From Eubacteriaceae bacterium ES3 (GTDB taxonomy: Bacteria; Bacillota; Clostridia; Eubacteriales; Eubacteriaceae), in contig CP130741.1 of assembly GCA_030586155.1 (NCBI GenBank), positions 2,040,680 through 2,104,679 of the forward strand: a DNA stretch of 64,000 bases. The letters are read 5' to 3'. Below are positions 11,731 to 64,000 of the stretch, piece by piece. The notes under the pieces are model-generated. The model had not been told where the DNA came from. It did not search any database and saw nothing but the letters and a program-made list of their open reading frames with translations. Positions within the stretch are counted from its first letter, which is position 1; each line of letters starts with the position of its first letter. The position numbers were made by a program, and so were the translations under genes.

Positions 11731-12824
11731 TATTCACCAATGGTCAACGGTCCAAAACCCTGATTAGCTTCAACATATTGGGAATAGATTTTTTCACCCA
11801 GCAGAAATTCAAATATTTCATCAGCCTTTTCATCAATAGTAATATCAGAGAAAGCTTCTGGATAGATAACCGTCCCTGCATAATAAGCATCAGCTAAAGC
11901 AATCTCAATATTGGTATAATTATTGTTATATGCCAGCTGAGAATAAACCTGATTATTCTGAACCGCCTGCAAAGAATTAAAGAAGTCTGGATTTTCTGCA
12001 TACTGCATATTTACAAGATCCATATTTTCTGGATTTAAAAAGATGATATCCGGATTCCATACCAGCACCTGTTCAAGATCTACTGTAAATGCACCACTTT
12101 GACCCGTTACATCCGTAACATTATTTGCGTTAATGGCAACAAATGGACCATAATTAGCACTGGTTCCATCAAAACCATGTTTACCTTTAAAGTTTAATCC
12201 ACCATTATAAACCGACGGTTTGCTTTCATCGGGAATATCCTGTGTCCGTTCGTTCAAATCTTCCTGTGCTGCATCCATGTAGTCATTAATTTCTTGAGCT
12301 CGCTCTTCTTCGCCTAAAACTTGACCAATCAAATTGATCGAATCATTCATAATCCCGTCAAAAAGACCTGGGTTGGCCACTGCAACTACTGGAATACCAG
12401 TTTTTTCCTGCAGTTCATCGGCCTGATTATAATCAGAGACCACAAAAATCACATCCGGCATTAGATTAATAATTTCTTCATCAAAGGGAACAATTCCACC
12501 AGCTCCACCCTGACCAATTTGTGCCAGCGATTCATAGTTTGGATTTACCAGGGTATAAGGTCTGGTCAAGACCTGAACGTTATCCATATCAGTTACACCT
12601 GTAACCAGATCTGCAGCACCCATATAAGTAAGTAAACGCATAACCCCTAAAGACCCAATGCTGTTGATTTCTGTCGGTACTTCCACCTGACGGCCCAGGC
12701 TGTCAGTTATAACTTGGGTTGATGCTGCTTGATCCCCCTCAGAATCTGTAACCTGTGAGCTTGTACAGGCTGCCATTGAAATCATTATTACTAAACAAAG
12801 AAAAAAAACACTAACCTTTTTCAT
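11730..12824 (-). CDS. Substrate-binding lipoprotein of the FecCD-type ABC importer
   Basis: 364 residues taking the second of two adjacent ATG codons, which has GAGGAG at the better spacing. A lipoprotein signal is visible (VFFLCLVIMISMAAC), so the mature protein is anchored to the membrane by the lipobox Cys. The fold is that of the class III binding proteins: ITDSLGRQVEVPTEINSIGSLG at the start, MPDVIFVVSD, and WNPDIIFLNP in the second lobe. Similar proteins bind siderophores, cobalamin, haem, molybdate or tungstate. No residue I can see settles the ligand. Confidence 0.88.
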   Translation of the reverse strand: MKKVSVFFLCLVIMISMAACTSSQVTDSEGDQAASTQVITDSLGRQVEVPTEINSIGSLGVMRLLTYMGAADLVTGVTDMDNVQVLTRPYTLVNPNYESLAQIGQGGAGGIVPFDEEIINLMPDVIFVVSDYNQADELQEKTGIPVVAVANPGLFDGIMNDSINLIGQVLGEEERAQEINDYMDAAQEDLNERTQDIPDESKPSVYNGGLNFKGKHGFDGTSANYGPFVAINANNVTDVTGQSGAFTVDLEQVLVWNPDIIFLNPENMDLVNMQYAENPDFFNSLQAVQNNQVYSQLAYNNNYTNIEIALADAYYAGTVIYPEAFSDITIDEKADEIFEFLLGEKIYSQYVEANQGFGPLTIGE

Positions 12825-12872
12825 CATAACTCCTCTTAATTAAATAAATCACATTCCTTTTGTCACCAGCGA

Positions 12873-13397
12873 TTAAATTCCGCGACTATAAGGGTTTGAA
12901 CAATCAACACAGACTTTTCTGCCATTTTCCAGGCGAATCATATGCTCTGCTGTTTTTTCACCACACTCTTCACAGATAATACTGTTAAAAATTCGAGCCG
13001 GTTCCGGTAAATCATAAGATGGTTCTTTAAAATCGAAAACTTTTGTGGCATCCGGTTCGCTTAAAATATAGTTTTCCATTTCATCGCGTTCCATATCAGG
13101 CAGGTCTTTTAAAACTAGCCGGATCTTCTCACCCGTTTTGCGGTTAAAAAAGGTAAAAGCCTGCTTACCGCGATTTCTAAAAATCAAATTACCTTTGCCT
13201 GCACTACAGCCCATAATCACCTGAACTCCGTCAACACCGCAAGCATCGTTTTCAGTTATACAAACTACTTCTTCATCCTCAGAAAACTGAATGTTTAGCG
13301 CCTTAATGGCTTCTTCCGAGGCTCTAACCCCAATTGCCAGTCCTGGGCAATGATGTCCATGAAATGCTACCGATTTCTCCCATAATTCTTTGTTCAT
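12873..13397 (-). CDS. FmdE family protein with C-terminal zinc ribbon
   Basis: 174 residues from the ATG at 13397 (GAGGAG upstream), not from the weaker start at 13430. The motif FHGHHCPGLAIGVRA near residue 10, ENDACGVDGVQVIMGCSAGKGN and NRKTGEKIRLVL define the FmdE domain. The C-terminus CEECGEKTAEHM..KVCVDC is a zinc-ribbon-like pair of CxxC motifs. FmdE was named from the molybdenum formylmethanofuran dehydrogenase operon; its biochemical role is unsettled. It is the first gene of the operon with the FecCD-type importer, preceded by a long leader with a terminator, which suggests control by a ligand or metal. Confidence 0.88.
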   Translation of the reverse strand: MNKELWEKSVAFHGHHCPGLAIGVRASEEAIKALNIQFSEDEEVVCITENDACGVDGVQVIMGCSAGKGNLIFRNRGKQAFTFFNRKTGEKIRLVLKDLPDMERDEMENYILSEPDATKVFDFKEPSYDLPEPARIFNSIICEECGEKTAEHMIRLENGRKVCVDCSNPYSRGI

Positions 13398-13664
13398 CTT
13401 TTCTCTCCTCAAAATTTTAAAATAGATCATATTCGCTCAGACCAACAAGTGATCTTCATCGCGAGTTTTAAATACAATTTAACCAAAAGAAAAAGACCCA
13501 ATTAATGAGTCTTCAGACATTTTATATCAATACTTACCATCTTCATGACGATATTATGGATTAAATTGTTAACAAAAAAGAAACCGCAAAAACCAATCCC
13601 TGCTTCAGCAGAACATCGATTATTACGGTAAATTCATTTACTTAAATGTTATATGTTTGTAACA
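13398..13664 (-). promoter_or_regulatory. Structured 5' leader of the FmdE-ABC operon
   Basis: Between the promoter and the FmdE start lie about 265 bases without a gene. On the minus strand they contain successive hairpins (AATGTTA/TAACATT, GTAAA/TTTAC with a TGAA loop, CTGC/GCAG with a TGAA loop) and then an intrinsic terminator about 90 bases before the start codon. This layout is that of a riboswitch or attenuator. I could not match it to a known class; the cores of the molybdenum-cofactor and cobalamin riboswitches were looked for and not recognised. Confidence 0.5.
13487..13513 (-). terminator. Attenuator-type terminator upstream of FmdE
   Basis: On the minus strand AAGACTC pairs with GGGTCTT around ATTAATT, followed by TTTTCTTTT. 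It lies inside the leader, before the start codon at 13397 and well after the promoter at 13671-13699. Confidence 0.75.
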
Positions 13665-13670
13665 TTAGTA

Positions 13671-13699
13671 ATCATAAACTATTTTTAAAGACTTGTCAA
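13671..13699 (-). promoter_or_regulatory. Vegetative promoter of the FmdE-ABC operon
   Basis: Minus-strand TTGACA (13694-13699), 17-bp spacer, TATGAT (13671-13676). It lies between the end of the split flavodoxin gene and FmdE, making FmdE the first gene of its transcript. Confidence 0.75.
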
Positions 13700-13766
13700 T
13701 GCTTGTATATACCATCAGTAAAACTTTTTTTAATTCTCCGCATGCTCAACTCTCATACAAATATAA

Positions 13767-14354
13767 TTACCTGATAAAGTTGGTCATTGTAGGTTTTTCA
13801 TATTCCGGCAAGCTTATTCCCGCTTTTTTACCAGCTTCTATGGACTTTAAAAGCCAGGACATATTTTCTCCAAGAGTTCTCATAATCTGCAAGCCTTCTG
13901 CATCTTTTAAAACCTCTTCCGGCGAATTTCCATGTACCTGATTCCAGTATTGAGAGGAAACGACTGGCATTTTAGCAATCGTAAAATATTTATTAAGCCG
14001 ATCAAATGTTGCGCTTGCTCCCCCTCTGCGACAAGAAACTACACAAGCTCCAGGTTTTCCTGCAAGTTTTTTAGTAGACGAATAAAACAGGCGATCGAGA
14101 AAAGAAGTTACCCGACCAGTCGGGCCAGCATAATAAACGGGTGAACCGACGATAATGCCGTCAATTTCTGAAAGCCTTTGAGCCATTTCATTGACCAAAT
14201 CATCGAAAACACAGCTACCGGTTTCATGGCATTTCCCGCAGGCAATGCAATCGTTAAGTGGTGTTTTACCCAAATAAAGAATCTCTACGTCAATTTCATA
14301 TTTCTTTAGTACTGTTGCCACTTCACTAAGGGCTGTAAAGGTACAGCCTTTTTC
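13767..14354 (-). pseudogene. Flavodoxin-family gene, 3' part, separated by an IS256-type insertion
   Basis: From the junction at 14354 the frame reads EKGCTFTALSEVATVLKKYEIDVEILYLGKTPLNDC and on through CIACGKCHETGSC (a CxxCxxC Fe-S or zinc site), IDGIIVGSPVYYAGPTGRVTSFLDRLF and CRRGGASATFDRL, ending at 13767. This is an NADPH-dependent FMN reductase/iron-sulfur flavoprotein of about 200 residues. The missing first 13 residues are at 15710-15749 on the far side of the insertion. A GTG at 14321 could start a shortened protein, but the phosphate-binding loop would be lost. Confidence 0.85.
14348..14354. repeat. Target-site duplication, left copy
   Basis: CTTTTTC here is repeated at 15710-15716, flanking the IS256-family element. 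Removing one copy and the element restores the flavodoxin reading frame exactly (CAT GAA AAA GGC). Confidence 0.75.
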
Positions 14355-33181: not shown

Positions 33182-33483
33182 TGTATGCACTCATTCAATA
33201 CCCTTTATTGTCCCGATGAATTCGCTGTATAAAAAAACGCCTGTCTCAAACGAGACAGACGATAAATCTGCTATACCACTCTATTTTACAGCAACTTCAA
33301 TACGGGTTTAACAAAACCGATATCTATCCCCTATAACGGTGGGCTTCCGACTTAACCTACTCTGACTATTTCAGCAAGCAACTCCGAGATCAGTTCATCA
33401 TCTTCTAACTTCTGCTTCACACCACCCAGCAGATCTCTGAAAATCATCTGATAACTACTACTTCTCATCAACGTTTTAATATT
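33182..33483 (-). promoter_or_regulatory. Leucine T-box leader, 5' module: stem I, first antiterminator and first terminator
   Basis: Read on the minus strand from about 33483: AGTAGTA-type start of stem I, the GGTGGTGTGAAGCAGAAG region, and a specifier loop GATGAACTGATCTCGGAG with the leucine codon CUC at 33386-33388. Next comes a T-box-like AGAGTGGTATAGCAG (33268-33287 region), then a terminator in which CGTCTGTCTC pairs with GAGACAGGCG (33238-33261) followed by seven T. The stem I/specifier reading is by eye; the terminator and T-box core are plain. Confidence 0.8.
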
Positions 33484-53840: not shown

Positions 53841-55049
53841 CTAATTAGTCATTAAATAAATCTTTTCTTTATCAAAGCATATCCCTGTTGTATGATTATA
53901 GATCTGAACCATGTCATTCATTTTTTCAACAAGCATTCCTGTACCTGGATCACCTATTGCCGCAAAAGCTCCAACGTATTTCTTTTCCATTTCGATAGCA
54001 TTGCTTTTTAAATAATCGCCTTTATCTTGAAGAAACTCATCAACTACCCCTTCTTTCGCAAGAGGAATATTTCCGATGAACTTTCCAACAGCTTTACCCG
54101 CAGAGCCTAATCCTTTTATAACATTTGATTCCAGTGCGGAGTTACCCATCTTCTCAAGACGAACAGAACACTTTTCAAATAAATCTCTATAGGTTTGTGA
54201 CATAAAGCTTATCTCATCTTTAATTCCTAAAATGTATTCTTCTTTAAAATTACCGCATAGCATTATTTCCATCAGAGATGCCAAAGAGAATGTGAAAAGC
54301 GATAATCTAAAATATTTAAACTTCTTCTCTAAGTCAGCCAATGTCGAATTAACCTTATTCTGAACGACGATGAACTGTTTCGCTTTAACAGCTTCATTAA
54401 TCTTCTTCTGATACGCGTTCATATTCTTTCTTGCAGTTCTTTGAATATCTAATACCAGCTTATGGTTACTCGCAACAAAATTCACATTATCCCAGTTAAG
54501 CTTATATTTTGTGACAATATTCATCAGTGTTTCTATATCAGCTTCGATTTCTGATTCCTTTTCAACTTCAAGGAATAGTAAAATCTGCTCTTCTATTTCT
54601 GCAATTTTACCAAGCTCTTTTTCAATCGAGAAAAGTGCTACTGACATTAACATTATGGCTGGGTTAATTGCAGCCGCTGTTGTAGTTGTTGCAGATAATG
54701 GGCCTGCTGCTTGAAGCTGTGCAAATTTTGATGCACCATCAGCAGTCTTGAAGGCTCCCCAAAAATTTCCATTTTTCGCAACCTTGAGAACATCGCCAAC
54801 ACCAGCATTTGCTAATTGATATAACCCCTCAGTGGCAAATGTAGTTGTCTGTGTGACTGTATTCAATGCTGGAATTAGTGATGCCACCCCAGCCCCTAGC
54901 GTCGATAACTCTGCAATTGGTACGCTTAATGTATTCTTACTATTTATCGTAGAACGCGCATCTAATAGCATCTCTTCTGTCAGTTCTATTAAGTCTTTTT
55001 CTTTTTTATCTACTTCATTAGAATGATAAATGTTAACAATTTCACCCAT
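53841..55049 (-). CDS. Unrecognised 402-residue helical protein with a central hydrophobic segment
   Basis: Starts at the ATG at 55049 with TGGAGG 7 bases upstream. The chain is largely helical. Residues about 85-135 are hydrophobic (AAGPLSATTTTAAAINPAIMLMSVALFSI) within an otherwise charged protein with long coiled stretches (ELGKIAEIEEQILLFLEVEKESEIEADIETL, AKQFIVVQNKVNSTLADLEKKFKYF). There is no signal peptide. The layout recalls alpha-helical pore-forming proteins or dynamin-associated membrane factors, but there is no motif to support either. It lies just outside the probable island edge. Confidence 0.7.
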   Translation of the reverse strand: MGEIVNIYHSNEVDKKEKDLIELTEEMLLDARSTINSKNTLSVPIAELSTLGAGVASLIPALNTVTQTTTFATEGLYQLANAGVGDVLKVAKNGNFWGAFKTADGASKFAQLQAAGPLSATTTTAAAINPAIMLMSVALFSIEKELGKIAEIEEQILLFLEVEKESEIEADIETLMNIVTKYKLNWDNVNFVASNHKLVLDIQRTARKNMNAYQKKINEAVKAKQFIVVQNKVNSTLADLEKKFKYFRLSLFTFSLASLMEIMLCGNFKEEYILGIKDEISFMSQTYRDLFEKCSVRLEKMGNSALESNVIKGLGSAGKAVGKFIGNIPLAKEGVVDEFLQDKGDYLKSNAIEMEKKYVGAFAAIGDPGTGMLVEKMNDMVQIYNHTTGICFDKEKIYLMTN

Positions 55050-55109
55050 GTTATTCCTCCAAAAACAGTTCACGTTAAATACATATTTCGTCTATTTTTA
55101 CTTATTAAA

Positions 55110-55118
55110 ATTATAACA
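55110..55118 (-). promoter_or_regulatory. Extended -10 promoter of the 402-residue protein gene
   Basis: Minus-strand TGTTATAAT is a consensus extended -10 (TGnTATAAT) about 60 bases before the start codon; no clear -35 is seen. Confidence 0.5.
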
Positions 55119-55127
55119 CAAAAAATA

Positions 55128-55153
55128 AAAAAGCCCAGTATTACTGGACTTTT
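55128..55153 (-). terminator. Terminator behind the rumA-like tail
   Basis: On the minus strand AAAAGTCCAGT pairs with ACTGGGCTTTTT with a short loop and a T-rich tail. It directly follows the stop codon of the rumA-like tail at 55161. Confidence 0.8.
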
Positions 55154-55160
55154 CACGTTC

Positions 55161-55215
55161 CTACTTTTCTACTTGTGTCATCAATACCACCGTCTCAACA
55201 TGCCTTGAGTAGACA
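55161..55215 (-). pseudogene. Displaced 3' tail of a rumA/rlmD-type rRNA uracil methyltransferase gene (probable attachment site)
   Basis: Read on the minus strand the DNA gives ...VYSRHVETVVLMTQVEK followed by TAG (55161-55163) and a terminator. HVETVVLM with a short polar tail is the typical C-terminus of the TrmA/RumA family. The body of the enzyme is not upstream; another sequence begins instead. Mobile elements commonly integrate in this codon stretch of rumA and leave such a tail. On this reading the island extends to higher coordinates and the gene body lies beyond the window. Confidence 0.5.
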
Positions 55216-55535
55216 AAAATGATGTCGTGAAGACCCATTGGTTCCTTGGCGGAGGAGTATTTTTCTCGAAAACGGCTTAAAACCATCCGTTTTTTCAAGT
55301 CCTAACTTCCACCCTTTTAAGATCAAACGGGACGCCATTTCTGTTCGGCACCTATAGTGCTGCTACAACTTTACCAGTCAGTAAAACTGTGCGCAATAAA
55401 ACTTTCAATTAATTGTGCCTTACTTGAAAGCTTTATTCGGCACAATTATTAAAATCAATTAACTCTGAATGTGAGTGTTAATAAACTTACATATATGTTC
55501 TTCGGTAGAAATAAAATCATCAATTAATCTTAAAA
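55216..55535. other. Non-coding stretch at the probable island end
   Basis: About 320 bases with no convincing gene. It contains a 9-bp stem at 55411-55447 (AATTGTGCC/GGCACAATT) around a 19-base spacer, and short repeats typical of recombinase arm sites could lie here; none is identified. Confidence 0.4.
55411..55447. repeat. Inverted repeat AATTGTGCC/GGCACAATT
   Basis: Perfect 9-bp arms with a 19-base spacer and no T-run on either side. It might be a recombinase or regulator site or a small RNA stem. Confidence 0.4.
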
Positions 55536-55624
55536 AATCGGCATTGTAATATAAAGTGTGTAAGTTCCAAAAAACTCTTTAAAAATCAATGAGTTTTGAC
55601 TATGATTTATGAAAGGATTACATC

Positions 55625-56887
55625 ATGGAAGGAATTACACAAATGGCTAAAAAGAAAGACCCAACTCCTGGCGAGGCAATCGCCAAATCAATCATGGATA
55701 CTTATGACCCTAAAACAACTGACGATATTCAGGATGCTTTAAAATCTATCTTTGGTCCAATCTTTGAAAGCATGCTTGATGGTGAAATGGAACATCATTT
55801 AGGTTATGCTTCTAATGATCGTTCCAAGAAAGATTCATCTAATCGCCGTAACGGTCACGGCAAGAAAACACTCAAAACATCTATGGGTGATATCAACATA
55901 AAGACCCCCAGAGACCGTGATGCTTCCTTTGAACCAGAAGCAATCCCCAAGCGAACCACCGATGTCAGCGACATCGAAAGCAAGGTTCTTTCTATGTATG
56001 CTAAAGGTTTAAGTCAACGTGATATCGCTGATATCATTGAAGATATCTATGGATTTCGTATCTCTCATCAAAAGATCTCCGTCATTACTGACAGTGTCCT
56101 GGATGAACTTGCAACATGGCAATCTCGATCCTTGAAAAAGTTCTATCCCTTTCTTTTCGTAGATTGTCTTTATGTAAATATCCGCACTGAATATGAAACA
56201 AAAAATCATGCAATCTATACTATTCTGGCCTACGATCTGAGTGGTAAAAAGGATATCCTCGGTTTATGGATCGCTGAATCAGAAAACAAGTCACAATGGA
56301 TGCAAATCTTCGATGAATTAAAAGTCCGTGGTGTAGAAGACATTGGCTTTATCTCGATGGATGGCCTTCCTGGCCTTGAAGATGGTGCATCAACCATCTT
56401 CCCTAAAGCGGTTATTCAACGCTGCATCGTTCATATGATCCGTAACTCGATAAAGTATATCCCGCAAAAGAAATACAAGGCTTTTACAACGCATTTGAAG
56501 CTGATTTATAAAGCTCCTAATAAAAAGGTGGCTCTTCTTGAATTCGAAAAATTCAAAGAACAATGGGCCGATTACCCGGGTGCTATCAGAGTATGGGATA
56601 TGAATTGGAAGCATGTCGAACAGCTTTATAACTACACCGCAGCCATTCGTAAAGTCATGTATACCACCAACGCCATTGAAAGCGTCAACTCAAGCTTTAG
56701 AAAAGTAACACACAAAGGCACTTTCCCAAATGAGAATGCAGTCCTCAAAGTCTTATATTTACGAATTCTTGAGCTTTATGAAAAGTGGTCCAGACGATCC
56801 GTATCCCACTGGGCAGATATCTTGAACCAAATGATTCTGATCGAGGATCTATCGGATCGAGTTCTCTACTACCAGCAATTCGAGTAG
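55625..56887 (+). CDS. IS256-family transposase
   Basis: 420 residues, full length. EMEHHLGYASNDRSKKDSSNRRNGHGKKTLKTSMGDINIKTPRDRDASFEP is the N-terminal block; FLFVDCLYVNIRTEYETKNHAIY has the first Asp, DIGFISMDGLPGLEDGA the second, and MYTTNAIESVNSSFRKVTHKGTFPNENA the Glu. It differs much from the copy at 14.5 kb, so they are separate lineages. AAAGGATTACATC precedes the ATG. Confidence 0.93.
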   Translation: MEGITQMAKKKDPTPGEAIAKSIMDTYDPKTTDDIQDALKSIFGPIFESMLDGEMEHHLGYASNDRSKKDSSNRRNGHGKKTLKTSMGDINIKTPRDRDASFEPEAIPKRTTDVSDIESKVLSMYAKGLSQRDIADIIEDIYGFRISHQKISVITDSVLDELATWQSRSLKKFYPFLFVDCLYVNIRTEYETKNHAIYTILAYDLSGKKDILGLWIAESENKSQWMQIFDELKVRGVEDIGFISMDGLPGLEDGASTIFPKAVIQRCIVHMIRNSIKYIPQKKYKAFTTHLKLIYKAPNKKVALLEFEKFKEQWADYPGAIRVWDMNWKHVEQLYNYTAAIRKVMYTTNAIESVNSSFRKVTHKGTFPNENAVLKVLYLRILELYEKWSRRSVSHWADILNQMILIEDLSDRVLYYQQFE

Positions 56888-56982
56888 TCAAAACTTATAA
56901 GTTCTGACTAGATTTTCCAACAAACGGAAAATCAATACTTTAGCTTTGGTCATATCTTATGGTCAAAAAAAGGAGGCTGAAA

Positions 56983-57537
56983 ATGGTATGTGGATACGCT
57001 CGTGTAAGCACAAAAATCCAGGAGAAAAATGGCAACAGTTTGGACTCACAAGAAGAACTGCTAAGGGATTCCGGTTCAAGAATCGTCTATAAAGAATCAT
57101 GCTCCGGAGCCACGCTGGACAGGCCAAAACTCAACGAACTTGTACATGCTTTGGAACCTGGCGATACACTTATGGTCACTAAATTGGACCGTTTGGCCCG
57201 GTCTGCTCATCAGGGTATACTGTTCATCGATCAGCTGCTTGGTCACGGAATCAAGGTCCATGTTCTAAACATGGGACTTATGGATAACACTCCCACCGGC
57301 AAGCTGATTCGGACAATTCTCTTTGCCTTTGCAGAGTTCGAACGTGATATGATCGTTGAACGTACGCAAGAAGGACGAAAACTGTCAGGCAACTATGGCG
57401 GTAGACCCTTGAAATATGGGCGTGAACAGCTGGAACATGCTTTACATTTACTTGCAACCAACTCCTACTCCCAGGTATCAAAAATGACTGGAATATCGGT
57501 CAGTACTATCTATCGAGCTAAGCAAAAACTGGGGTAG
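56983..57537 (+). CDS. Serine recombinase (resolvase/invertase type)
   Basis: 184 residues from the ATG at 56983 with AGGAGG upstream. [19 protein letters not shown] holds the catalytic Ser; [27 protein letters not shown] and [21 protein letters not shown] are the catalytic-domain blocks; the C-terminus [24 protein letters not shown] is a small HTH. It is a short recombinase rather than a large integrase. It lies inside the IS ends, 95 bases after the transposase. Confidence 0.92.
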
Positions 57538-57579
57538 GAAAACCTAACTTACACACTTCAGTTGACAAGGCCGACTTAT

Positions 57580-57633
57580 GTCACAATTAGCGTTTCTCAC
57601 GTTTTCGAAGTTCGTGAATTGCTAAATTGTTAC
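57580..57633 (-). ncRNA. Structured hairpin element, copy A
   Basis: On the minus strand an outer stem (GTAACAATT/AATTGTGAC with a bulge), a 4-base and a 6-base internal loop, an inner stem CACG/CGTG and the 11-base loop AACTTCGAAAA. Copy B at 59841-59890 has the same loop and layout but a different inner stem (TTGCG/CGCAA) and outer stem, so base pairing rather than sequence is kept. It lies between the GTPase stop codon and the IS256-like element. A TATAAA box lies 10 bases before it, matching the promoter position of copy B. Confidence 0.6.
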
Positions 57634-57644
57634 AGTATTAAATT

Positions 57645-59726
57645 TTATACTTCATCATATACATACATCTTCTGAAGAAGCTCATCAAATTCCTTTTCTA
57701 TAAGCGGCAAAAGATTTACTTGCCAGTAATTATCAGAGCTAAATTGCTTATCAATATATGTCAAACCTATTCTGAATGCACTATCCCACGAATAATTGTA
57801 AAATATTTGATTCAAATCCGGCTGCAAACAATCATATGTCAATTTTTTTGCCACACTATCAATTATACTTCCCCATCGGGTTCTTATCAGTTGATCAAAT
57901 TGCATAGGAAATGTGTTCTTAACCGTTTCAATAATTTCTGAGTCACCTTGTAAATGCACGTACGAAATATCAAAATCATTAATCATATCTTCCATAGGAA
58001 CAAGTGCTCGTAGCCATTTCGCCACCATATTCTTTATAAACAGCTTAAAGCTTCCATACACATATGCTCTTGTTTCATGTCCTTCTCCATAACTTAACTT
58101 ATATCGAAAACAATCCACTGATTTCCAATGAAACTTAATTTTACTATCAATATACTGAATATACTGCTTTCTTTGTTGTATGTTATATGCCGCCAAAGCT
58201 ACGCCAATTGTATTATTTAGCATGTGTGCTTTACAGGTCAATGATAGCGGCAAACTATTAATATCGTCACTATAAAGCCATGGACGACTTCCATCGTTTG
58301 AATATTGTTTATCTATTTCATTTGTAATGTTTAATAAAATATCAAACACCTTTGCAGAGCTCAATACATTATTTAAAACTTTATTCATATCCTTAGTATA
58401 ATCTGGCGCCATTGAAATAAACTCTAATGGCAATCCTTTACACAGCTTATCCTCATGATTAGAATTACTTAATAAAAACTCCTCTTTAAACATTTCGAAT
58501 GCATAACGTAAATATTGAGCATAATTATCTTCATCAGAGATTTCATTCACACCGGTATCTTTTCTCCATTTATTAATCATAATGTTTCTTAATACTATAT
58601 CTGCCTTTGTTCTACAAATCACCATAGGTTTAAACTCAAACTTTTGCTTCTTTTCGTCCAATAACATTATACTCGTTTCATATACTAGCGGCTGCTCATC
58701 AGAAGCACATAGAAATAATATTGCGTCTGTTTGCCTTTGGAATATCTTATCCATTGCGTCACTGATATCATCCTTTTCCTGTGATGATTGCGTGAGTCCT
58801 ACCGTGTCAAGAATATTTAGTTTTAACTTGCGACCGGAGACATTAAGCCCGCGATTTACAAATGCTTCCACAAATTTTTCAGAAGGACTTGTTGCATAAC
58901 AAATTTCCTCAAATATTAAGGAACATGCGCTACTCTTGCTATACAACTTCGCCATTAACTCATGAACATTACCTCTTTCAAGTATCGAATCACACAAAAT
59001 AAAATTACCCTCACTAGAAATCGACCATAACCCTTGTAGATCAACATATATTTTTTCTTGTAATCCTATAAACCATTCTTTTAAAATTTCTCTATGAGAA
59101 GAAATTTCATTAAATCTTCTATCGAACAGTTCTTCATAAATATCACTTTTCTTAATGCCATTATGTTCTTTTCTTCGTTCCTTGAATGCCCTATTCGCTT
59201 CTTCATCAAATGGAATTGGGTTGTCTACAAGTTCTTTGGAAATTTTATTTAGCATTTCTCGTAAGTTTTCAAGAAGTCCTTGTTCTTTTACAAACTCAAA
59301 TGCATGATAACTTCGGTCAATAGGATTCAATATATTTCTAACAACACTCTCATCAACATCAAAAACATCAAGTTCATCTCTCTGTTCGTAAAATGCCCCA
59401 GCTAGTATCTTCTTTAATGTAGATATGAAGTTTAGAAGTATAGTCTCATCATTCTCGTGAGGAATACATTGAATAATCACCTCATGCTTGTTGAACCTAC
59501 TATTAAGCATTAAACAAGTTCGTAGTAACGTAGTCTGTGCGGTATCCCCCACATTATATCCCAATAACTTATTACTTAATGCTTCCAACAGTTCTGTAAT
59601 GAGAGTTGATTTTGCACTACTTGTTGGCCCCATCAAGGTAATCGTTGCTGCACTTTTTTGCTTGTTCAAAAATGCAATTACCTTATGTTCATCCATTTTT
59701 AATCCTTCAAAATAGCTTTGTTCCAT
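57645..59726 (-). CDS. Large dynamin-like GTPase
   Basis: 693 residues; GGAGG lies 11 bases before the ATG. G1/P-loop is GPTSSAKST at residues 33-41 (Ala in place of the usual Gly before Lys), G3 is LNILDTVG at 307-310 and G4 is CRTKAD at 373-376, all in order for a TRAFAC GTPase. The gap between G1 and G3 is about 265 residues, far longer than in classical dynamins, suggesting an inserted helical domain. The C-terminal 300 residues are helical with Trp/Tyr-rich patches (KWLRALVPMEDM, FYNYSWDSAFRIGLTYIDKQF). No membrane segment. Probably a membrane- or polymer-acting mechanoenzyme; bacterial dynamin-like proteins include phage-defence factors, but that role here is only a suggestion. Confidence 0.75.
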   Translation of the reverse strand: MEQSYFEGLKMDEHKVIAFLNKQKSAATITLMGPTSSAKSTLITELLEALSNKLLGYNVGDTAQTTLLRTCLMLNSRFNKHEVIIQCIPHENDETILLNFISTLKKILAGAFYEQRDELDVFDVDESVVRNILNPIDRSYHAFEFVKEQGLLENLREMLNKISKELVDNPIPFDEEANRAFKERRKEHNGIKKSDIYEELFDRRFNEISSHREILKEWFIGLQEKIYVDLQGLWSISSEGNFILCDSILERGNVHELMAKLYSKSSACSLIFEEICYATSPSEKFVEAFVNRGLNVSGRKLKLNILDTVGLTQSSQEKDDISDAMDKIFQRQTDAILFLCASDEQPLVYETSIMLLDEKKQKFEFKPMVICRTKADIVLRNIMINKWRKDTGVNEISDEDNYAQYLRYAFEMFKEEFLLSNSNHEDKLCKGLPLEFISMAPDYTKDMNKVLNNVLSSAKVFDILLNITNEIDKQYSNDGSRPWLYSDDINSLPLSLTCKAHMLNNTIGVALAAYNIQQRKQYIQYIDSKIKFHWKSVDCFRYKLSYGEGHETRAYVYGSFKLFIKNMVAKWLRALVPMEDMINDFDISYVHLQGDSEIIETVKNTFPMQFDQLIRTRWGSIIDSVAKKLTYDCLQPDLNQIFYNYSWDSAFRIGLTYIDKQFSSDNYWQVNLLPLIEKEFDELLQKMYVYDEV

Positions 59727-59768
59727 ATGACTTATCCTCCAATTTTCTATATTTCCCCGTACAATAAA

Positions 59769-59798
59769 AAAAGGTATAATCCAATACAGATTATACCT
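59769..59798 (-). terminator. Intrinsic terminator inside the GTPase leader
   Basis: On the minus strand AGGTATAATC pairs with GATTATACCT around TGTATTG and is followed by TTTTTTT. It lies after the hairpin and before the GTPase start, 43 bases upstream of the ATG. This makes the leader an attenuator. Confidence 0.85.
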
Positions 59799-59840
59799 AA
59801 AATCCCAAAAATTCTATGCGGTAGTCTGTACGAAAAGACT

Positions 59841-59890
59841 AATATGGGTGCAAAATTTGCGTTTTCGAAGTTCGCAATACACACCGTATT
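59841..59890 (-). ncRNA. Structured hairpin element, copy B, at the 5' end of the GTPase transcript
   Basis: On the minus strand outer stem AATA..GGTG/CACC..TATT, internal loops of 4 and 6 bases, inner stem TTGCG/CGCAA and loop AACTTCGAAAA. It begins about 11 bases after the TATAAT box, so the RNA would start with this fold. A further small hairpin (TAGTC/GACTA) and the terminator follow before the gene. Confidence 0.65.
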
Positions 59891-59901
59891 CAGTTAAGTA
59901 A

Positions 59902-59930
59902 ATTATATTTGCTTGTCCAAGAAATGTCAA
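59902..59930 (-). promoter_or_regulatory. Perfect consensus promoter of the GTPase transcript
   Basis: Minus-strand TTGACA (59925-59930), 17-bp spacer, TATAAT (59902-59907): no mismatch to the vegetative consensus. Such strength with a terminator downstream suggests a constantly made leader RNA and controlled read-through. Confidence 0.9.
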
Positions 59931-60243
59931 TCACGTTTTATATTTAAATTTATTCTCTTGACAATTTTGATTTTATCTAATTCCTTAATACGAGAACTTA
60001 TCCATGGATAATCATTAAATTGGATTCTGCATTGATTGATTAAGCGTGTTCAAGGGATAGTTCCCAATCCAATTCGTATCAAAGATGAAAACACTCATTA
60101 GCGAGATTTTTCATAACTTGAAGTTCTGTTATTTTTAATCCCGGTATTACAATTTGCCATTTTCATGCAAATTCATGTAAATAAAACTATTTACCTTGTT
60201 ACACATCTCCACCTTTCCTTCAACACAACTGTCTCTATTGCAT
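59931..60243. other. Intergenic region between the small-protein gene and the GTPase promoter
   Basis: About 310 bases, AT-rich. It contains a small stem ATAAC/GTTAT with loop TTGAAGTTCT and T-rich tail on the plus strand (60114-60135), possibly a terminator for an unseen plus-strand RNA. No gene recognised. Confidence 0.4.
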
Positions 60244-60555
60244 TTATTTTATCTCAATAAAATCAATGACTCGATATTTGATATTCAGATCTTCTAAATC
60301 AGCTTTTATAACTGCTAAGCTGTTTTCATCTCCATGCCCAACAGCATGGATAACAATAATACATTTTTCAACACCTTGAAGATGCTCGTGCTCAATTAGT
60401 CTTGTAACACATCCAGGGTTTAAGTATGGATCCTGTGGATTCAGGTTTATTATTTCTGTGCCAGCTGCATCCCAAATTGGACATGGTGCAAAAAGCAAAT
60501 CATAAGAAGCACCTATTCCTTCTTGCTGATTTTCAAATACTAATGTAAATCTCAT
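60244..60555 (-). CDS. Unrecognised 103-residue protein following the SMC-like ATPase
   Basis: From the ATG at 60555 with GGAGG 8 bases upstream. MRFTLVFENQQEGIGASYDLLFAPCPIWDAAGTEIINLNPQDPYLNPGCVTRLIEHEHLQGVEKCIIVIHAVGHGDENSLAVIKADLEDLNIKYRVIDFIEIK has a possible alpha/beta fold with alternating strands (KCIIVIHAVG, YRVIDFIEI). It is 32 bases downstream of the ATPase gene, in the same operon, and so probably a partner or a regulator. No family known to me. Confidence 0.65.
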   Translation of the reverse strand: MRFTLVFENQQEGIGASYDLLFAPCPIWDAAGTEIINLNPQDPYLNPGCVTRLIEHEHLQGVEKCIIVIHAVGHGDENSLAVIKADLEDLNIKYRVIDFIEIK

Positions 60556-60587
60556 CGTTATATCCTCCATAATCTGCTAATTTACAA

Positions 60588-63500
60588 TCATTCAATCTCC
60601 ATATGATCAAACAACTGCATCTGGATAATCTCTTTAGATTCCGTTTTTTCATTTCGTATCGTATTGATAAACTGACCTTTTGCATTCTTGGTTTGTTCTA
60701 TGATCATATGCTTATCAAAGAGTATCTGCGCCGAACTTGGCACATTATGAGCAACACAAAGTAATTGCGCATTGCTCTTATCAAGAAATCGCCTTACTGG
60801 TTCCCAAAGTTCAATCGAAGACGCAGATGCAAAGGGATTATCTAAAAAGATAAAAATCGGCGCTTTCATTTTATCACTGATGATCGTTACGTTATTAAAA
60901 TATTTAATCATGGTTATTGCAAACATGACGTATGTTACATAGCTTTGACCAGATGACGCTGAAAGCTGACCCCATCGGTAGTACTTAGGCTTATCCTGCT
61001 CAATTTTTAGGATTTGAATATTAAGCTTCTCAAAATCGATTCCATAATGCATAATATTGTTTATGCTCAATCGATTTTTAATATCTCTTTTTGTCATCCC
61101 CTCGTTTTGAACAGAATTGGCTAATTCATACACGTAAGCTTTTAGCTGGTTTAAAGCAATATCATTTTCTATCCTGCAACTGTTCTCTTCGCTCAAGTTA
61201 ATTCTAAATGACTCCCTTGTATATTCTCCGTACTTAAACTTTGAATATTCTGGAATTTTTGCAATTTCATCCAGTATAGTTTTTAGCATTCTGAATACCT
61301 GTTCTGCAATCTCTTCATCAAGCCGACCAATATTGTCTATTGATGTCTCAAGATTCTTTATTGTCGATCGGATTATATCTGACGTTTGATCGAGAAGCTT
61401 GATTAACTGTGTTGTTTCATTGAATGACTGTTTAATGTTAAGGTATTCTTTCAACTTAGATTTTAGTTGCTCGCTGACATTCAGTTTCTGTATTGTAAGA
61501 TCAAGCTTTTTAATTTCTGTATTGATTTTGCTTATGGCTTTATCATAATCAGATTTAATCACGGCATAGCTCTCGTACATTTGTTCATATGAAAACTTGA
61601 TATCAGCTTGTTCAGCAGTTTGCCATTTTAATGAGTTCGTATTACAAAATACAGTAAATTGCTTTAGTTCTCCATCATCTTTTCTCTGCTGCTCTTCTAC
61701 TTCTAAGATAGATTGGTAGTTCGCCTTAAGTAGATCCATTATTTTGAAGAGTGAATCGTTACATGTTCTTTCAAGATCTTCTAATTCGGTTAAATCCATT
61801 GCCAGAAATTTTTCAAAATACACCGCAATCTTTTCTTCTAGGTTTTCATAATTTTTCTTACAAGATTTCATTTCCACTTCAGCAGTATTTTTTTCATCTT
61901 CAAGGTGACCTTTTTCATCCAATAATTCCTTCACTTTTGTTTCTATGAGTTCAAATTCTCTTGAACCTATCTTTTCAACATTATTAAGTCCATATATCTC
62001 TACGAATTCTATCTTGGAAAATCGGTAATCATCTCGTATACCATTCATATAACTATCCAATTTCCGCTGTTGTTCAACTAAATCATCATAATCCTGTACT
62101 TTTATATCAAAGGAACGTTTTGCTTCTTTAAACCTGCTATATAATGTTGTAATGTCTTCATCTGCTACAAAATTAAATCTCTCACCTTTATATCCTTCAG
62201 CCTCTTTAATGTAATCATCAAATTTGCGAATATATTCCTTGATCCTTTCAAGAACTTCTTCAAAATGCTCCTTGCCTTTTTGTGCTTTGCTAATATCAGC
62301 CTTATTATTATCAAATTCATACTCAAGGTCATCTTTTTCTTCTAGCAGTCCTTTTATTTGAGCAGCGATAGTTTTGATATTATTATCCAAAACTATTTTT
62401 TTACTCAATAATTCATACTTTTCAAAAACTTCAGTCTTTTCCTGTTCAAGTTGTTCTTGTTGACTTTTAATCGTTTCAAACTTCAGCTCCAATGCTCTTA
62501 TCAGTTGTTCTTGTTGAAGCTTTTTTGCTTTTAAATCTGAGATTTCTTTCTCTTGTTTCTTTATTTCTTCGCAATATTTGGACACCAACCTTACAGGGTA
62601 CTTGTGAAGATGTGCACCCATTAACTCACTTTGAGAATCAATGATTTGTTTATCCTCTTTTAATGTTTTAATCTTTTCTAACAGCTTGCCAACTTCTCTT
62701 TTTCTGGACTCGATGGCTTCATTTGGATTTAAAAGGTTTTTATAATACTCACCATCACGCGTAAGAAGGTACATTGATTCGAAATTAATGCCATCATCAA
62801 TTTTATTAATTACAGACCAAGGCATAAGTACAAAATTCTCTTTAGCAACTGTTACACTTACAGATTTTTTACCCATGGAAACTCGGCTGAATTCATCATC
62901 AGATACAACTAGAACTTCAGCAAATCCAGGGAATCGATCTAATATTCTTCTGACCTTGTCCTCTTCCATTTCTTTCAACAAATCTGAACCGAATCTGGCA
63001 AACTTCCAGTCACCAATTATAGAATTCAAAGCATCATATTTAGACCTAGCCCTGAGAAAGCCATAATCTTCTAGTATTGAGATTTCATTTTCTCGATCTT
63101 CAATAATTTCATTGATTTGGACTTCATCTTTAATTAGCTGTTCCTGTTGTGATCTCAATTGATCAAATGATTCTTGAATATTTGATTCACTTGCCGTTGT
63201 TTTAAGAACAATTTCCTTTACTGAAGCGTTGAAGTCAGCAAGCCAATCAGTTTTTTCTTTTAGATTTTTTTCTTTTTCTGTTATAAATGACCCTGTATTT
63301 TCCTTATCTTTATCAGCTGAAATACGATCCGTATTATTCTGAATCAATTCTTCTTTCAACTTCATCAAATCTTCTTCAATGCTAACTTTCAGGCCATCTA
63401 AAATATTAAGCTCCTCTTCATCGAAAAGAGAATTACTGTAATTTGGGTATACTCTTAGCTCCTTTTCAATATCGGTCCATTCTCGCTCAGTCTCATATTT

Positions 63501-64000
63501 TTTATGCTCAAATTCCAAAAGACTTTTCTTACATTGATCAAGTTGACTTTCCAATCTTCCTTCCGCATTTTTCAAATCACCCAACAAATTGTCGTTTTTA
63601 TCTCGACCTTCTTTATTACTTTTTTCTTCAGCTGTAAGGTTGGTTTTTTCACTTTCAGCAAGTTTGCAAATCGTATTGGCAAGTTCTGCTGTGATTTTTT
63701 TCTCATCGTAATTTGCACTGGTGAGCTTTTCAAGCCTTTCATCTATACCAATTTTATCTGATTCATGTTGCTTATAATCAATGACAAGGTTGATTGCCTC
63801 AAACCTTATTCTTTCAAGGTTCTTTTCTTCGATTTCTTCATTTATTTGATTCAGCAAATCCTTCTTTTGTGAAAAAATCTTTTCTAATCTTTCAAGTTCG
63901 ATTTGAAGCTTTCGAATCTCAATATTCTCAAGGTCATTATCCAGACCATCTTTTTGTTCTTCCAGCTTAATGCGTTCTGCCTCATGAATTCTGTGAAGCT
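60588..64000 (-). CDS. SMC/SbcC-like coiled-coil ATPase, N-terminus beyond the window
   Basis: An open frame of 1,136 codons reaches the right edge without a start, so the Walker A part is missing from the window. Two very long coiled-coil arms (about 62.3-62.7 kb and 63.1-64.0 kb, and again before 61.2 kb) surround a globular region at about 62,720-63,070 (LRARSKYDALNSIIGDWKFARFGSDLLKEMEEDKVRRIL), which may be a hinge. Near the C-terminus LSASSGQS (about 60,945-60,965) is a variant ABC signature and IFIFLDNPFASASS (about 60,840) the Walker B/D-loop, followed by LLCVAHNVP. This is the SMC/Rad50/MukB class; it is not the JetC type of Wadjet by the C-terminal motif. Likely to act on DNA, perhaps in defence or plasmid/phage restriction. 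Confidence 0.8.
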   Translation of the reverse strand, partial: LHRIHEAERIKLEEQKDGLDNDLENIEIRKLQIELERLEKIFSQKKDLLNQINEEIEEKNLERIRFEAINLVIDYKQHESDKIGIDERLEKLTSANYDEKKITAELANTICKLAESEKTNLTAEEKSNKEGRDKNDNLLGDLKNAEGRLESQLDQCKKSLLEFEHKKYETEREWTDIEKELRVYPNYSNSLFDEEELNILDGLKVSIEEDLMKLKEELIQNNTDRISADKDKENTGSFITEKEKNLKEKTDWLADFNASVKEIVLKTTASESNIQESFDQLRSQQEQLIKDEVQINEIIEDRENEISILEDYGFLRARSKYDALNSIIGDWKFARFGSDLLKEMEEDKVRRILDRFPGFAEVLVVSDDEFSRVSMGKKSVSVTVAKENFVLMPWSVINKIDDGINFESMYLLTRDGEYYKNLLNPNEAIESRKREVGKLLEKIKTLKEDKQIIDSQSELMGAHLHKYPVRLVSKYCEEIKKQEKEISDLKAKKLQQEQLIRALELKFETIKSQQEQLEQEKTEVFEKYELLSKKIVLDNNIKTIAAQIKGLLEEKDDLEYEFDNNKADISKAQKGKEHFEEVLERIKEYIRKFDDYIKEAEGYKGERFNFVADEDITTLYSRFKEAKRSFDIKVQDYDDLVEQQRKLDSYMNGIRDDYRFSKIEFVEIYGLNNVEKIGSREFELIETKVKELLDEKGHLEDEKNTAEVEMKSCKKNYENLEEKIAVYFEKFLAMDLTELEDLERTCNDSLFKIMDLLKANYQSILEVEEQQRKDDGELKQFTVFCNTNSLKWQTAEQADIKFSYEQMYESYAVIKSDYDKAISKINTEIKKLDLTIQKLNVSEQLKSKLKEYLNIKQSFNETTQLIKLLDQTSDIIRSTIKNLETSIDNIGRLDEEIAEQVFRMLKTILDEIAKIPEYSKFKYGEYTRESFRINLSEENSCRIENDIALNQLKAYVYELANSVQNEGMTKRDIKNRLSINNIMHYGIDFEKLNIQILKIEQDKPKYYRWGQLSASSGQSYVTYVMFAITMIKYFNNVTIISDKMKAPIFIFLDNPFASASSIELWEPVRRFLDKSNAQLLCVAHNVPSSAQILFDKHMIIEQTKNAKGQFINTIRNEKTESKEIIQMQLFDHMEIE

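Follow-up and report, generated by a model that had tools for sequence, protein, structure and literature searches.

The GTPase gene and its surroundings

The window, that is, the whole 64-kb stretch of DNA from Eubacteriaceae bacterium ES3 analysed here, contains a large GTPase gene coding for 693 aa on the minus strand (57645..59726). Two hairpins, both read on the minus strand and hence in the sense of the GTPase, bracket this gene, as had been described in the first-pass annotation. Hairpin A (57579..57635) is located just 3' of the GTPase stop codon, and hairpin B (59839..59893) is placed where the leader RNA of the GTPase is predicted to begin. The protein matches the Pfam family MMR_HSR1 (E 3.5e-05, 24.3 bits, cut-off 21.9); no PADLOC match of any kind and no toxin family match in Pfam, PADLOC or NCBIfam was found for it. 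The AlphaFold2 model of the GTPase alone was unusable, with a mean pLDDT of 36.4, and comparison with solved structures gave two matches, at E 0.2 and 0.99. The gene was not found in the other 66 genomes of the order, and in the sets of 67, 391 and 398 genomes only the window's own copy was detected. Two short matches to a two-sequence profile (40 and 90 positions; 299 genomes) were taken as generic P-loop and set aside. No relative was confirmed in genome_contigs by six peptide patterns, which detect close relatives only, and none in phages or viral_contigs. The sole relative found is encoded on a Paenibacillus peoriae plasmid, with 22.7% identity over 57% and 22% over the whole alignment.

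Upstream of the GTPase, the genes of a Wadjet type III set run in its direction, in the order JetD-JetA-JetB-JetC (window 60244-64000 and L012 924-9613). The set is headed by a WYL protein, and at its tail is a protein of 108 aa, for which there was no match in Pfam, PADLOC or NCBIfam. Farther along, beyond an IS21-type pair, L012 has on its minus strand (12714-13838) a strong match to PADLOC candidate family PDC-S11 (1.2e-150). An IS256-type insertion sequence with a serine resolvase (55535..57577, plus strand; Transposase_mut and Resolvase matches) ends one base from hairpin A. It has 32-base inverted repeats (55535-55566 and 57546-57577, 81%), no target duplication was seen around it, and it is present as a single copy in the genome. 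In 19 genomes of the genus two short fragments were found besides the element itself, and the ten plasmid matches listed mainly cover the transposase part. That hairpin A might belong to the insertion sequence was considered; no insertion sequence adjoins hairpin B. The tetranucleotide AGTC, which stands 3' of both hairpins, was rejected as a shared feature because in A it is inside the terminal repeat of the insertion sequence. A gene of 410 aa (53841-55073, minus) has no Pfam match; relatives of its product (77-86%) are on three contigs of the viral collection, L187-L189, downstream of serine recombinase-like genes. It was set aside as a partner, since the listed frames of these three contigs hold no such GTPase and R1, the covariance model built from A and B, is unmatched there. 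Elsewhere in the window there is a T-box leader (33248-33480, minus, 111.4 bits).

Structure and distribution of the hairpins

It had been claimed earlier that A and B share their loop exactly and have the same layout of outer stem, internal loop, inner stem and loop. Both copies are present, and the loop AACTTCGAAAA with its two adjoining pairs is the same in A and B. The 15-nt core CGAACTTCGAAAACG around the loop shows no difference, and the stems outside the core are largely different. The two copies align over 57 columns with a single two-base gap and fold into a common structure of 10 outer pairs, 5 inner pairs and an 11-nt loop, with an internal loop between the outer and the inner stem; to the layout already described is added a one-base bulge of the outer stem at the same place in A and B. 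R1, being made from these two sequences, scores A at 71 bits and B, with 15/15 pairs formed, at 67.8 bits. Of the 15 shared pairs, both bases had changed in 9, one base in 2 and neither in 4, and pairing was maintained throughout (30/30 cells), which is more compensation than the first-pass annotation had claimed. Sliding the 3' partners by 1-3 columns lowers the pairing to 27-46%.

It should be noted here that the 15-pair structure was derived from the same two sequences. Because the pairs come from A and B themselves, a shuffle control was run separately, in which the core was kept and the flanks of each copy were shuffled independently (n=2000). The joint fold energy of A and B is -10.9 against a shuffle mean of -1.9 (sd 1.4) and was reached by 0/2000 shuffles; the number of shared pairs was reached in 8/2000 and the number of two-sided changes in 13/2000. 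A scan for hairpin pairs with stems of at least 4 Watson-Crick pairs showed A/B to be the sole pair with an identical 9-13 nt loop in the window (listed twice, with the 11-nt loop and a nested 13-nt loop). In 60 window shuffles there was a mean of 1.4 identical-loop pairs, 0.13 with a loop of at least 11 nt and 0.17 within 2.3 kb. Folded singly, A and B have only a moderate advantage over shuffles (z -1.1 to -2.0), and the strength of the evidence therefore lies in the comparison of the two copies. The two minus-strand hairpins are homologous, and the comparison supports a conserved RNA structure at these positions. The original observation is thus confirmed and is stronger than first described.

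A DNA cruciform had been offered as the alternative to a conserved RNA structure. Of these two proposals the RNA structure is supported and is favoured over the cruciform, as the promoter and terminator matches of B (described below) are on the same strand as the hairpin. Weaker evidence in the same direction comes from the two U-G pairs of B, which are mismatches on the opposite strand (15 vs 13 of 15 pairs); A pairs 15/15 on both strands.

The first-pass annotation named a lack of further homologues with covarying stems as the result that would speak against it, and the covariance-model search has so far brought nothing convincing beyond A and B. Elsewhere in the genome no match was found at E<=1. 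The 67 genomes of the order gave five matches besides A and B (E 0.34-0.86), the 391 genomes of the class gave five (E 4.7e-4 to 0.044) and the 348 genomes of the phylum three (E 0.0015 to 0.019), one of which is also in the class list; searches of more than 40 genomes used stricter filters, by which weak matches are lost. A match as good as the best one has an expectation of about 0.3 by chance over that many genomes. The three best-scoring matches (L199, L204 and L200) were rejected as homologues, being located within open reading frames, and there was no convincing third copy in the samples of 67, 391 and 348 genomes. The core alone, with up to 2 mismatches, occurs at 7 sites in the 3.39-Mb genome, the 2 exact ones being A and B, and the reversed control pattern occurs at 22 sites. 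The exact core was found in at least 119 stretches of genome_contigs and 54 of viral_contigs. Among the matches listed there were 166 distinct contexts after merging identical flanks, two of them the window's own, and 9 of the other 164 had three or more further contiguous pairs (G-U allowed), against a chance estimate of 8.6 (0.375 cubed x 164). These contexts were rejected as homologues, as their pairing, among the matches listed, is at about chance level; the one with the longest pairing there (L125, 10 pairs) is inside a long open frame. It was stated earlier that no named element is known with this loop, and in agreement with this there were 0 matches to Rfam families in window 55000-60300 at E<=1. 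The leader DNA had no match in plasmids and 3 short matches in phages, at E 0.8. The literature searches brought up no paper on this element, and none on a bacterial RNA, by title, under the loop sequence. Two copies, both from one genome, are thus the basis for the hairpin element.

Predicted leader of the GTPase gene

Hairpin B is preceded on the minus strand by a promoter-like site, TTGACA-17-TATAAT (59902..59930), with 12/12 consensus bases and a 17-base spacer. It is the single exact match in the window, where 0.12 would be expected, and 8 bases separate it from the aligned part of B. The predicted leader RNA is 132 nt long (59764..59895, minus), its start being taken from the promoter and its end from a T run. 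In the minimum-energy fold B is followed by hairpin 2 (leader 56-73; 59823..59840, minus), which pairs 56-73 to 60-69, and by an intrinsic terminator (59772..59798, minus), which has 12 pairs and a T run and precedes the GTPase start codon by 45 bases. Promoter, B, hairpin 2, terminator and GTPase follow each other in this order, so that a promoter, a structured element, an intrinsic terminator and a gene are found on one strand. The promoter scan listed no minus-strand site between the terminator and the GTPase start codon. In the window as a whole there were 27 promoter-like sites vs 25.8 in shuffles and 4 terminator-like sites vs 3.9; as these scans show no excess, it is the perfect promoter and the arrangement of the parts that carry weight. 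The leader (59764-59896) folds better than shuffles (z -2.64). From this anatomy of promoter, terminator and gene, the GTPase gene most likely depends on readthrough of the terminator by transcription from the 12/12 promoter or from further upstream. A GUG frame of 45 codons with a hydrophobic end (59750-59884, minus) runs through the leader and the terminator, and no start signal was seen for it; it was rejected as coding because in copy A, examined by eye, the corresponding frame meets a stop immediately 5' of the core.

Two mutually exclusive folds were computed for the leader, one with the terminator (-28.9 kcal/mol) and one with an antiterminator (-26.2 kcal/mol), the latter obtained by penalising pairs inside the terminator. 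In the antiterminator fold the terminator's 5' arm is paired with the strand after B, which is also the 3' arm of hairpin 2. The closing base of B (leader 2-6 with 54-58) in turn needs the 5' arm of hairpin 2. As strands are shared between the base of B, hairpin 2 and the antiterminator, a closed B would favour readthrough and an open base would favour termination. An equally good antiterminator was obtained in 51/1000 and 24/500 shuffles, so that its presence beyond chance is suggestive only.

Just before the gene of the P. peoriae relative there are three strong hairpins (L186 4720-4885, z -4.06). The layout is similar to that of the GTPase leader here and the loop is different. R1 has no match in this leader, which also has no antiterminator excess (54/300 shuffles as good); its last hairpin was not listed by the terminator scan and its two promoter-like sites are 9/12 matches. 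It is treated as a lead and not as a homologue.

The surroundings of copy A are different. The nearest minus-strand promoter-like site upstream of it (57890-57862, 10/12) is inside the GTPase gene. By eye, a -10-like TATAAA is about as far from hairpin A as the -10 is from B; the scan listed no promoter there. Copy A can still be read in three ways: it could have led a gene that has since been lost, be a second site within the GTPase message, or mark the end of a cassette.

Proposed transcription attenuation and its alternatives

From the computed features, that is, the covarying hairpins, the promoter and terminator matches and the two exclusive folds, we infer a transcription start, a switching mechanism, a partner and a history of A. 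Transcription would begin where hairpin B has its base and, unless something intervenes, would end at the terminator before the GTPase. Some partner, which could be a protein, an RNA or a small molecule, would hold B closed to its base (leader 2-6 with 54-58), and this would prevent the formation of hairpin 2, the anti-antiterminator. The 3' arm of hairpin 2, thus set free, would capture the terminator's 5' arm, and RNA polymerase could continue into the GTPase. The loop would be conserved because the partner reads it, and the stems would merely need to pair. Copy A would be a paralogous copy, which either headed another gene, the rest of which has disappeared next to the insertion sequence, or serves as a second site towards the 3' end of the GTPase transcript. 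That B is the 5' sensor of a leader of about 130 nt controlling the GTPase gene by transcription attenuation is a proposition to which we give an even chance. It is supported by the covariation, the exact promoter and the terminator on one strand, the lack of a listed minus-strand promoter-like site from the terminator to the start codon, the exclusive folds of similar energy and the folding of the leader beyond shuffles. Counted against it are the modest advantage of the antiterminator over shuffles, the lack of a good promoter at copy A, the failure to find a third copy or a close GTPase relative, and the single relative found, the leader of which is unmatched by R1, shows no antiterminator excess and ends in a hairpin unlisted as a terminator.

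Among known systems, the GTPase leader would work most like a terminator-antiterminator leader, with which it has in common a structured 5' element, an alternative fold and an intrinsic terminator right before the gene; here no Rfam family fits and the loop is not among the families searched. Integron attC sites have conserved outer boxes, whereas at A and B it is the loop and not the outer stem that is conserved. Among described systems that combine a repeated leader hairpin and a terminator, the LoaP-dependent dfn/mln leaders come closest; in them a repeated small hairpin is followed by an intrinsic terminator (PMC12691694). Their loop is a UNCG tetraloop and the protein involved a NusG paralogue, whereas the loop here is of 11 nt and the genome codes for a single NusG-domain protein (one PF02357 match at E<=0.001), no paralogue besides the housekeeping NusG being found. 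The 11-nt loop does hold UUCG, without a closing pair in the fold, and is not of the UNCG type.

Other explanations deserve to be weighed against attenuation. It could be that a short RNA carrying B, made in excess because of the terminator, binds the GTPase or its partner and keeps it inactive, in the way that the RNA of a type III toxin-antitoxin operon acts, A being a second RNA unit. The order of promoter, structured RNA, Rho-independent terminator and gene is common to this locus and to the type III toxin-antitoxin operons (ToxIN, CptIN, TenpIN; PMC5086642), and defence genes adjoin. However, there is one such hairpin before the terminator, one unit per place, instead of tandem RNA repeats; the protein matches a GTPase family (MMR_HSR1, above cut-off) and not an endoribonuclease, and it has no PADLOC match. 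We regard this as unlikely. The self-complementary UUCGAA of the loop could also allow kissing between two RNAs, or between A and B of one GTPase message, with control of stability or expression. This would explain why the loop is conserved, as it must match itself, and the two hairpins flank the gene in a common orientation; the duplex of the loop with itself is at -5.9 kcal/mol and that of loop 1 with the loop of hairpin 2 at -3.7, these energies having no shuffle control. Yet the bases around UUCGAA are also identical, for which pairing has no need, and the terminator would normally separate B from the message. We regard kissing as distinctly unlikely.

It is doubtful to a still greater degree that the two hairpins mark the ends of a single-strand mobile element, IS200/IS605-like or cassette-like, with the GTPase as its cargo. 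Two hairpins in one orientation around a segment are indeed reminiscent of the ends of IS200/IS605 elements, the enclosed gene is missing in all 66 other genomes of the order, and the genome has three Y1 transposase matches. Against this, R1 has no match at E<=1 near the three Y1 genes (L209-L211) or anywhere else in the genome outside A and B, no transposase is inside, and the promoter and terminator would be left unexplained. Chance, or a decaying duplicate without function, would agree with the finding of two copies only in the searches made and with the chance occurrence of the 15-nt core in large collections. Decay, however, would break pairs, and here 9 pairs have changed on both sides and none is broken, and no shuffle reaches the joint fold energy; this explanation is very improbable.

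Our data support the RNA structure, and attenuation, with about an even chance and on two copies from one genome, is the best reading of it. To the hairpins first noticed, the present analysis adds the promoter, the terminator, a possible antiterminator and the insertion sequence beside A. A more speculative extension, which we consider distinctly unlikely, is that the hairpin RNA and the GTPase together make up a new kind of defence module beside Wadjet, under the control of RNA, in which the GTPase or a partner reads the loop and infection shifts the RNA, the GTPase being armed by readthrough or by RNA release. If attenuation is true, a large GTPase adjoining a Wadjet operon would be under the control of an unlisted leader RNA and its partner. 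The attenuator would be compact, with three short strands in competition, and the paired changes would give clear predictions.
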